Source: Spirochaetota bacterium
Lineage (GTDB): Bacteria; Spirochaetota; UBA4802; JAFGDQ01
Direction of reading: 5' to 3'
NCBI GenBank assembly: GCA_034190085.1
Contig: JAXHTS010000075.1
Coordinates: 1 to 43,888, forward strand
DNA length: 43,888 nucleotides
Shown here: positions 15,442 to 19,923 of the stretch, piece by piece
How the letters are laid out: each line of letters begins with the position of its first letter
Numbering within the stretch: position 1 is the first letter of the stretch
Translations under genes and position numbers: made by a program
The notes under the pieces: generated by a model
What the model was told of the DNA's origin: nothing
Databases searched by the model: none
What the model saw: only the letters and a program-made list of their open reading frames with translations

Positions 15442-16671
15442 TTATTGCTTTTTCTTTGCTACAAGCATTATTCTATTGGGAAAAGTCTCTTTAATCTCAA
15501 TTTCAAATCCAAGATTTTCTGCCTTTGCTGAAAGTTCATCGGATAGATCAGTTGTCTTGCCGGCAAATTCAACCTCAATCTTTGCGTATTTTCCGCTCTG
15601 TCCCCTTGAATAGACCTTCTTAATACCCCTTATTCTATGTTGAATCTGATTTCTGAACTTTGTAAAGTCTTTATAGTTAAGACCAGATATATTCATCATA
15701 ATCATTCTCTGAGTAGCAGCGCGTAGAAATTTTTTAGTGATCTGATTCATAAAGGATCCGGATTTGAATTTGCCAGTCTCCTCATCAACCTTGCCTAATA
15801 TTCTTTGAAGGCACCTCTGAATTGCAATTTTTGAGGCTGTGGATCCATCTATGTGTATGCCTGGAGAATTAGCGCTTGTGCTAGCAAGAATTCTTCCTGT
15901 ATAAACATCAATTGACTTTAAGTTTAGTATTGCCTGTTTGGATTTCATGTTCTTTGATATTCCACTTATAGCATGGGACTGATCCATAGTCTTTGATCGC
16001 CCAATAATGATTACCTCCGCTCCCAAGTCGTCTAATAGGAGATTCTGAACATTGCCTCCAACATTGCCTTTTATGGCTTGCTGCATCTTGCTCTTCTCTC
16101 TTTTGAGTAATTGTTGGGTCATCTCTGCATCAACAAACTCGAAACCCGCATTACCCATTATCTCCATCATGGTGAGTTCAGTTACAGTAAAACCAGGCAT
16201 ATTCTGTTTGCCCTCAAAGGTCTCTTTAACCAACACCATAAATTTAGGTCTTCCATAATTTCGCAGGGTCGATTCTATGGTATCATTTACAGCCTGTGGA
16301 TATACTTCCCCCTCAAGGGTGACAACAAAAGCGCCTTGATCTGCGCCCTCCTTTATGATTGACCAGTCGCGAACCATACCTGTCGATTTTGCCTCTACTA
16401 TTGATTCAATGAGTACAAAATCTTCCACTACTGATCTTCCCTGAACTGTGGTTCCCAACACCTTCTTGACCAGTTTATTCATGGCATCATCTATGGCTCT
16501 GTCCCTGGCTAAGGCTTTATCATTGTCATAGATCGTAGCATAACCGGTCGCCTGTCCCCTCATCTCATCCCTTTGTGATTGTTCCCTTTTTATCTGTGAT
16601 TTCCCACCGCAATAGATTAAGAAGCCTGTAGATAGTATAAGTACTGAAAATAATATTTTTTTAATTATCAT
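15442..16671 (-). CDS. Lipoprotein with FlgT/LPP20-like domains, probable envelope protein
   Basis: 409 aa from ATG at 16671, supported by AAAGGAG nine bases upstream; the longer 430-aa reading has no such SD. A signal peptide (IIKKILFSVLILSTGFLIYC) ends in a relaxed, spirochaete-style lipobox. The N-terminal domain has QATGYATIYDNDKALARDRAIDDAMNK-type sequence and then a VVTLEGEVYPQ strand; this is the FlgT-N/LPP20 pattern. A middle domain (about 140-290) has FMVLVKE...GADVI-like beta/alpha repeats similar to LpoB/CsgG-like folds, and a C-terminal domain binds nothing recognisable. FlgT stabilises the flagellar base in Vibrio; equivalence here is only an inference. Confidence 0.7.
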   Translation of the reverse strand: MIIKKILFSVLILSTGFLIYCGGKSQIKREQSQRDEMRGQATGYATIYDNDKALARDRAIDDAMNKLVKKVLGTTVQGRSVVEDFVLIESIVEAKSTGMVRDWSIIKEGADQGAFVVTLEGEVYPQAVNDTIESTLRNYGRPKFMVLVKETFEGKQNMPGFTVTELTMMEIMGNAGFEFVDAEMTQQLLKREKSKMQQAIKGNVGGNVQNLLLDDLGAEVIIIGRSKTMDQSHAISGISKNMKSKQAILNLKSIDVYTGRILASTSANSPGIHIDGSTASKIAIQRCLQRILGKVDEETGKFKSGSFMNQITKKFLRAATQRMIMMNISGLNYKDFTKFRNQIQHRIRGIKKVYSRGQSGKYAKIEVEFAGKTTDLSDELSAKAENLGFEIEIKETFPNRIMLVAKKKQ

Positions 16672-17114
16672 ATTGCATATCTCCTTTGTTATCTTTGGAT
16701 TATTAATGGTATCAGCTAAAATCTTTGAATTCATAATAGTAGTTCAGATGATCATTGAGTAAAGACTTAATTGATTTTCTGTTATGCTGCAATAATCTGA
16801 AATGGTATAGGTTGAAGATAATAGTGTATTTAGCACTGATATGATGCTGAAACAAGTGTAATAAGTATTATATCTTAATTGTCATAAAGTATAATAGTCA
16901 AGTTATTTTTTAGATTAGCATAATTGATTTTCAAGAGTTGCTAATTCTATTGGTCATATCAATATTGGTGTCAATTTTTTTGGGAATAATGTGAAGATAA
17001 TGGTTATGGTGTTAATATTTATATTTAGAAATAGAACAGCTTGTAATTCAAATTTTAATAACTCTGGATAGTATGAAGGGATTTCCATCGATCAAATATT
17101 GGGAATTTTTTAAT
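16672..17114. other. Intergenic region, lipoprotein gene to speE
   Basis: About 440 bp, very AT-rich. The first 63 bp could encode an N-terminal extension of the lipoprotein that I reject. No RNA gene, terminator or repeat found. Confidence 0.5.
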
Positions 17115-18038: not shown

Positions 18039-18458
18039 TTATTTCCTGAGTATTACATTAACAGAATAGTCACTTCCTTTAAAATAACTCAATGAAAAAT
18101 GAGCAATGAGTTCGGGGTCATAGTATTTACAACTAAATACATCAATATAGGCGGCATTGGTATGATTAACAAAGTGACCAGATATTAATGAAGTCTCAAT
18201 AAGCTGGACCATAGAGAATCCTGCAACCTTCTCCTCCTTCCCAAAGTGAACCACCTGAGCCTCATTGAAGCGTTTCATCTCTAAGAGTTCACATAGTTGT
18301 ATTACATACTGTCTAATGGATTCTTCATCTCGAATAATGCCATAATCGCAATTGTGTATATCAACACTGCTATACAACCCCCATGCGCCGTGTTGATAAA
18401 ATTGGTCGCTTGATGGGATTATTTTATGAAAGTCTTCTCTCTTTAATGCGGTTTGCAT
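18039..18458 (-). CDS. Divergent SpeD paralogue (AdoMet decarboxylase-like)
   Basis: 139 aa with a strong SD (GGAGGTAAA before ATG at 18458). Aligns by eye with the canonical SpeD next to it: SVDIHNCD matches the ELFNCN strand, and S90, H95 and C110 in ETSLISGHFVNHTNAAYIDVFSC-type sequence (S90-H95-C110) occupy the same +5 and +20 spacing as canonical S63, H68 and C83 (pyruvoyl serine, processing histidine, catalytic acid). However, the residue before the serine is T instead of E, the next H is L, and the TWPE motif is replaced by FVNH. Self-processing is possible, but the substrate may differ. Alternatives: decarboxylase for another amino acid, or a regulatory partner subunit comparable to trypanosomatid prozyme. 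Lies between speD and speE. Confidence 0.8.
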   Translation of the reverse strand: MQTALKREDFHKIIPSSDQFYQHGAWGLYSSVDIHNCDYGIIRDEESIRQYVIQLCELLEMKRFNEAQVVHFGKEEKVAGFSMVQLIETSLISGHFVNHTNAAYIDVFSCKYYDPELIAHFSLSYFKGSDYSVNVILRK

Positions 18459-18621: not shown

Positions 18622-18999
18622 CTATGTTACAGATATCTTTCTTCTCTTGATTTCAGGTATGATTCCTCTTTCAAACTGGAATATTGAGCATTTTTCAGTT
18701 TCTAACTCTCTTTTAATATAATCAAGGGCTGACTGATAGTCAAATTCTCCGCAGGTAAAAATGTCCACTGCAACATAACCATACTCTGGCCAAGTGTGTA
18801 TCGTAAAATGGGACTCTGCAATTACTACTACCCCGCTAACTCCGTAGGGTGAAAACTTATGAAAATAGTGTTTAACTACATTGGCCATGGATAGGTTCGC
18901 AGCAATCAACATAACCTCCTCAACCTTTTTCGAGTTGTTTATATATGATTCATTACAGTTGAAGAGTTCAGCTATTACATGTGTACCAAGACCCTCCAT
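18622..18999 (-). CDS. speD: S-adenosylmethionine decarboxylase proenzyme, class 1b
   Basis: Decarboxylates AdoMet to supply aminopropyl groups to SpeE. 125 aa, typical for the short bacterial/archaeal form. S63 (autocleavage and pyruvoyl source), H68 and C83 lie in IAESHFTIHTWPEYGYVAVDIFTC-type sequence, with numbering identical to the Thermotoga enzyme. GTHVIAELFNC forms the N-terminal strand. SD AGGGG precedes ATG at 18999 by about nine bases. First gene of the polyamine cluster, 163 bp before the paralogue. Confidence 0.95.
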   Translation of the reverse strand: MEGLGTHVIAELFNCNESYINNSKKVEEVMLIAANLSMANVVKHYFHKFSPYGVSGVVVIAESHFTIHTWPEYGYVAVDIFTCGEFDYQSALDYIKRELETEKCSIFQFERGIIPEIKRRKISVT

Positions 19000-19479: not shown

Positions 19480-19923
19480 TTATACATTTTCAATTAGATG
19501 ATTCAGGATTAAACCGTAAAAGCTGCTAATCTTCGATTGATAATACCATCCTAGATGAATATGACAGATTGAACATATTGCATAGCACCAAGAAAAGCCG
19601 GAGAACCAAGTAAAATCAGTTGTGGGTTCTCCTGTTATTATACAACCCTTTGCATTGATAAAGCATCCAATTTGATATGTATATCCTACAGGATTTTTGA
19701 AGGTATGTTGATGTTTCCCGTTTATTACAATGCAATTATCGGGTGATGTGATTATGTTACTGCATAATTTGCAGAGTATCAAATGTTCTCTTCTGCTCTC
19801 ATCATCCCAATCGTTATCAGATAAGGGAGTGATTTTCCCGACTTCAAAGGGTGTTGTTTTTTTTAAGATTAGTCTGGGATCGTTTATAAAATTGAGTAAT
19901 TCGTTATTGATATTCTCGATCAT
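19480..19923 (-). CDS. CULT-domain (cereblon-like) protein
   Basis: 147 aa from ATG at 19923 (a TTG five codons upstream is an alternative). An N-terminal 40-residue tail precedes a single CULT domain. Zinc ligands C51/C54 (CKLC) and C117/C120 (CSIC) are present, and the aromatic cage tryptophans are W106, W112 and W126 in TWFSGFSW and HLGWYY. Their spacing of 6 and 14 equals human cereblon W380/W386/W400. KNPVGY and SFYGLI are other family hallmarks. The fold binds cyclic imides, uridine and related small rings. No signal peptide, so cytosolic. Natural ligand unknown. Its gene stands alone between polyamine and UDP-glucose genes. Confidence 0.85.
   Translation of the reverse strand: MIENINNELLNFINDPRLILKKTTPFEVGKITPLSDNDWDDESRREHLILCKLCSNIITSPDNCIVINGKHQHTFKNPVGYTYQIGCFINAKGCIITGEPTTDFTWFSGFSWCYAICSICHIHLGWYYQSKISSFYGLILNHLIENV

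Follow-up and report, generated by a model that had tools for sequence, protein, structure and literature searches.

A free-standing spirochaete CULT protein with an intact tri-tryptophan cage, and hints of a link between bacterial CULT genes and protein quality control

Introduction

The thalidomide-binding domain of animal cereblon is a CULT domain with a tri-tryptophan cage. Protein ends that carry a C-terminal cyclic imide are recognised by animal cereblon, and human PCMT1 is able to generate them from C-terminal asparagine (PMC11974815, PMC13001092). Small bacterial CULT proteins have also been described, among them MsCI4 ('cereblon isoform 4', MGR_0879) from Magnetospirillum gryphiswaldense. 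A spirochaete was already present in the alignment that defined the family: WP_020769190 from Leptospira, listed there, is likewise a single-domain CULT protein (PMC4287342). What bacterial CULT proteins bind in nature, and to what end, has been a question ever since they were first described, and an earlier note on the DNA analysed here, which called such proteins known and their role unclear, agrees with the literature in this respect (PMC4287342, PMC4449219).

The present analysis concerns a gene within a stretch of 43,888 nucleotides (hereafter the window) from a Spirochaetota bacterium. The product is almost certainly a small free-standing bacterial CULT protein with an intact tri-tryptophan cage, and is a new member of an already known family. 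Like MsCI4, it has a single CULT domain, the cage, the zinc cysteines and a closely similar predicted fold; it differs from MsCI4 in its N-terminal region, to which a hydrophobic-basic motif and an acidic linker belong.

Results and Discussion

Identity, cage and predicted fold

The CULT gene lies at 19480..19923 on the minus strand and encodes 147 amino acids from an ATG start, stop codon included in these coordinates; the assignment is based on the open reading frame and its translation, phmmer, AlphaFold2 and Foldseek. An in-frame TTG upstream of the ATG would lengthen the product by five residues, to 19938. In a promoter and terminator scan around the gene, sites were no commoner than in shuffled sequences.

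The CULT domain comprises residues 48-147 (19483..19782, minus strand), as delimited by the MsCI4 alignment, pLDDT and Foldseek. When PDB chains were searched with phmmer, this region matched MsCI4 with an E-value of 6e-22 and the protein matched animal cereblon with values of 2e-11 to 4e-9; nothing further was significant, the next match having an E-value of 0.8. The domain shares 37% identity with MsCI4, and W106, W112 and W126 together with C51, C54, C117 and C120 coincide with the cage and zinc positions of that protein. Pfam places Yippee-Mis18 (PF03226) below threshold, at 16.6 bits against a cut-off of 26.6, so that membership of the Yippee/Mis18 family was rejected; no other Pfam family matches, and an NCBIfam search returned nothing relevant. 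The LON domain likewise has no Pfam match, only a short extension precedes the CULT domain, and assignment to the cereblon-type E3 substrate receptors was rejected since the 147-residue protein lacks both the LON domain and the DDB1-binding region. Unlike animal cereblon, it thus has no LON domain and no DDB1 partner, and carries phenylalanine at what we take to be the position of His378 in human cereblon; phenylalanine is found there in 115 of 179 bacterial relatives.

An AlphaFold model was built from the window protein and 56 relatives. The CULT domain is modelled with a pLDDT of about 97 (94-98 per block), residues 1-47 have low pLDDT, and the best 50 Foldseek matches of the model are all MsCI4 or cereblon, mostly with an rmsd of 1.2-1.6 Å; the protein is accordingly predicted to adopt the beta-tent fold. 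Sequence, profile and predicted fold agree on a free-standing CULT protein, as the earlier note had proposed from the letters of the DNA. The residues that it singled out are correctly numbered, with W112 six residues after W106 and W126 a further 14 on, and with the two zinc CxxC pairs at 51/54 and 117/120; similarity searches, whose failure to place the protein in the CULT or Yippee-like families it had named as a refutation, lead to CULT by way of MsCI4 and cereblon.

The cage tryptophans W106 (19606-19608), W112 (19588-19590) and W126 (19546-19548), which together span 19546..19608 on the minus strand, are conserved in 177, 178 and 177 of the 179 relatives, respectively. On the same strand, the first zinc pair (C51 and C54, 19762..19773) is kept in 177 and the second (C117 and C120, 19564..19575) in 178, while N77 is present in all 179. 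Because these residues are nearly invariant across relatives that span several phyla, a chance origin of the cage and zinc pattern is excluded.

One reading makes the protein a pyrimidine (uracil/uridine) sensor, in which uridine or deoxyuridine, recognised by the cage, would signal a metabolic state or DNA damage: MsCI4, whose cage is the same as that of the window protein, has been shown to bind uridine in vitro and has a crystal structure with deoxyuridine (PMC4449219), and 4v31 is among the Foldseek matches. However, no pyrimidine-metabolism family is prominent beside the 179 loci, and the ugd gene beside the window gene is not conserved; we consider this reading very improbable.

Distribution of bacterial CULT genes

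Of 393 genomes sampled in the phylum, 32 contain a CULT gene, as do 29 of 46 in the order. Further CULT genes came from samples taken around loci of Myxococcota, Desulfobacterota, alpha- and gammaproteobacterial type, labels that follow the record titles of the loci. The window protein clusters with five others from the same order (L111, L112, L113, L114 and L124) in a six-member clade with a FastTree support of 0.83. Two loci, L106 and L133, the latter from a genome of the same order, have identical CULT sequences. Viral carriage was rejected, as none of 85 pattern matches was confirmed. Long open frames at Myxococcota-type loci of high GC content suggested CULT fusions; these were also set aside, the residues ahead of the domain resembling, on inspection, out-of-frame translation of high-GC DNA. 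A CULT sequence nearly identical to MsCI4 occurs in a Stygiobacter metagenome-assembled genome (L105, 5455-6306) and is probably alphaproteobacterial contamination of that bin.

The N-terminal motif and acidic linker

Ahead of the CULT domain, residues 17-25 (19849..19875, minus strand) form a hydrophobic-basic motif with the sequence RLILKKTTP. It precedes the first zinc cysteine by about 33 residues, as it does in many relatives. With a pattern written after inspection of the sequences (two hydrophobic residues, then F/L or alternatively Y, M or C, then R/K), the motif is found at positions -38 to -29 relative to the zinc site in 34 members of a non-redundant set of 115 relatives (below 60% identity), as against 3.3 ± 1.8 and at most 10 in shuffled sequences; in a set of 54 below 50% identity it is found in 14, as against 1.6 ± 1.3. 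The alphaproteobacterial relatives L108, L208 and L209 have short N-termini that lack it. Residues 35-46 (19786..19821, minus strand) form an acidic linker that is probably disordered, judging from the low pLDDT and from the bias towards acidic residues that relatives show at -4 to -15 of the zinc site. The fixed position of the motif would suit an element that docks outside the cage; by analogy with the N-terminal extension of cereblon (PMC4449219), it could alternatively fold over the cage. A shared N-terminal motif in bacterial CULT proteins appears to be new, as far as we are aware.

Recurrent neighbours across CULT loci

No gene is conserved beside CULT family-wide, either across the 111 loci first compared or across the 179 that followed, and most bacterial CULT genes are loners. 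This habit, together with varied neighbours, would suit a reader of some other small cage ligand, such as a free cyclic imide, a hydantoin or an ammonium or methylated group, possibly imported. Aromatic cages often bind such groups, but MsCI4 was not observed to bind choline, carnitine or betaine (PMC4287342); moreover, among transporter and catabolic families none recurs in independent lineages, and the proposal is improbable.

In seven of the 179 loci, representing about five independent events, CULT is accompanied by a gene for protein quality control. CULT is followed on the same strand by clpS and then clpA in L068, and by clpS in L081, where clpA comes after one opposite-strand gene; lon lies directly after CULT, also on the same strand, in L113. 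A gene for a LonB-like protease follows CULT on the same strand in L283 and L280 (gap 489 bp in L280), and pcm precedes it, again on the same strand, in L124 and L168. In the window protein's own clade of six, such a neighbour is found in two, L113 (lon) and L124 (pcm). The CULT-LonB-like pairs, at 8279-11935 in L283 and 9829-12267 in L280, belong to one divergent CULT clade of Desulfobacterota type. The PCM of L124 scores under the pcm equivalog cut-offs. That of L168 (2714-3520, minus strand) has an N-terminus resembling that of a lipoprotein, which would not be expected of an isoaspartyl methyltransferase, so it may occupy another compartment.

Searches of 2.39 Mb of flanking DNA, with E. 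coli proteins and adjacent genes found at the loci as queries, revealed no ClpS, PCM, Lon or LonB away from CULT; FtsH occurred once, at 3.2 kb from CULT, and four loci have ClpA-like ATPases at 5-9 kb. Adjacent same-strand slots make up 8.3% of 2293 gene slots, or 7.1% when a gap below 200 bp is required. The binomial probability of the adjacency is 2e-5 to 6e-5 for all matches, 2e-4 to 4e-4 once related loci are collapsed, and 1e-3 to 3e-3 if lonB is omitted too; these values are optimistic because the panel of proteostasis genes was drawn up post hoc, after the first neighbours had been noticed, and the LonB query came from a CULT-adjacent gene. Since genes around the loci were, in addition, called by a simple longest-ORF rule, the statistics are indications rather than proofs. 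Within clades, some other neighbours are found repeatedly at more loci, namely hemD/cobA (eight loci), UPF0173 MBL-fold hydrolases (five) and TauE (five). The adjacency to clpS-clpA, lon, lonB and pcm, which is apparently new, hints at a connection with protein quality control, on statistics that are modest and partly post hoc. In an open-access literature search of limited coverage, no proteolytic role was found proposed for bacterial CULT proteins, and no gene neighbourhoods were found described.

A possible reader of damaged protein ends

The reading that we favour, at a rough probability of 0.38, is that CULT, working with AAA+ proteases, PCMT or both, is a receptor or adaptor whose substrates are proteins that end in a cyclic imide. 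A C-terminal aspartimide or glutarimide would arise through chain breakage at asparagine or glutamine, or be made by the isoaspartyl methyltransferase PCMT acting on C-terminal asparagine, and would be bound by the tri-tryptophan cage. The folded cage would grip the damaged end while the N-terminal motif, on its disordered acidic linker, docks elsewhere, and either an AAA+ protease (ClpAP, Lon or LonB) or, for repair, PCMT would receive the damaged protein, making the whole a ubiquitin-free counterpart of cereblon. The pcm, clpS-clpA, lon and lonB neighbours fit such a bacterial chain from damaged end through CULT to protease or repair. The near-invariant cage, the recognition of C-terminal imides by animal cereblon, the positionally fixed N-terminal motif and the presence of PCMT in every genome of the order also speak for it; the small number of loci with these neighbours and the lone position of the window copy speak against. 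The ligand, the adaptor role, the partner and the likeness of the window copy to its relatives in behaviour are inferred.

ClpS and SspB are protease adaptors that combine a small terminus-binding domain with a flexible tail. The resemblance of CULT to them would be one of working principle, with clpS as its direct neighbour in two loci; their fold is unrelated to CULT, whose adaptor activity is putative.

A complete bacterial C-degron pathway independent of ubiquitin, in which PCMT or spontaneous cleavage makes the imide, CULT reads it and ClpAP, Lon or LonB degrade the protein, is rather unlikely as it stands. Were it true, the reading of imide ends by a cereblon domain would not be tied to ubiquitin ligases. 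If bacterial CULT proteins do read C-terminal cyclic imides, whether for AAA+ proteases or for repair by PCMT, bacteria would have an equivalent of what the thalidomide receptor does physiologically, and the proteins could be put to use in targeted protein degradation in bacterial cells. Concrete candidate partners are named by the loci with clpS-clpA, lon, lonB and pcm.

Imide groups might also be sequestered or repaired without proteolysis, CULT presenting the aspartimide or glutarimide to PCMT or to a UPF0173-type MBL-fold hydrolase so that damage is restored or detoxified. A Lactamase_B_3/UPF0173-type gene is adjacent on the same strand in L034, L057, L101, L262 and L283 (in L283 on the side of CULT opposite the LonB-like protease) and occurs nowhere else in the flanks, its product could be a cyclic-imide hydrolase, and pcm adjoins CULT in two loci. 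However, the MBL queries came from CULT-adjacent genes, the gene is confined to some lineages and its link to cyclic imides is putative, whereas the clpS, lon and lonB adjacency indicates degradation; this alternative is quite unlikely. The presence of PCMT was discarded as a discriminator within the order, being encoded in all 46 of 46 genomes, one of which (G000) has three matches.

Neighbours of the window gene

None of clpS, lon, lonB or pcm adjoins the window CULT gene. Downstream lie genes for AdoMetDC, a second AdoMetDC-like protein and SpeE, and upstream a nucleotide-sugar dehydrogenase gene of the ugd type, all on the same strand as CULT. The earlier note was right to name polyamine genes on one side and ugd on the other, but the relevance that it implied is not borne out by conservation: in the neighbour comparison across relatives that it suggested, spe genes do not recur near the 179 CULT loci, and the same-family genomes L111 and L112 have other neighbours, sharing none of the AdoMetDC/speE/ugd set. 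Same-strand placement is what would speak for a function of CULT in polyamine metabolism or with ugd, a reading that is hardly credible given flanking gaps of about 480 and 527 bp and neighbours not common to other loci.

The two neighbouring AdoMet_dc-family genes beside speE (18039-18458 and 18622-18999, both minus strand) encode proteins with 25% identity over 92 alignment columns. One is canonical (TIGR03330, with the motif ESHFTIHTW); the other is divergent, with a Pfam E-value of 1.7e-21, no NCBIfam match and SGHFVNHT in place of ESHFTIHT, and may be a non-self-processing partner subunit. Elsewhere in the window, 15442-16734 (minus strand) encodes a protein of 430 residues that is probably lipoprotein-like and matches FlgT_N weakly, just past the cut-off (Pfam E-value 4e-7).
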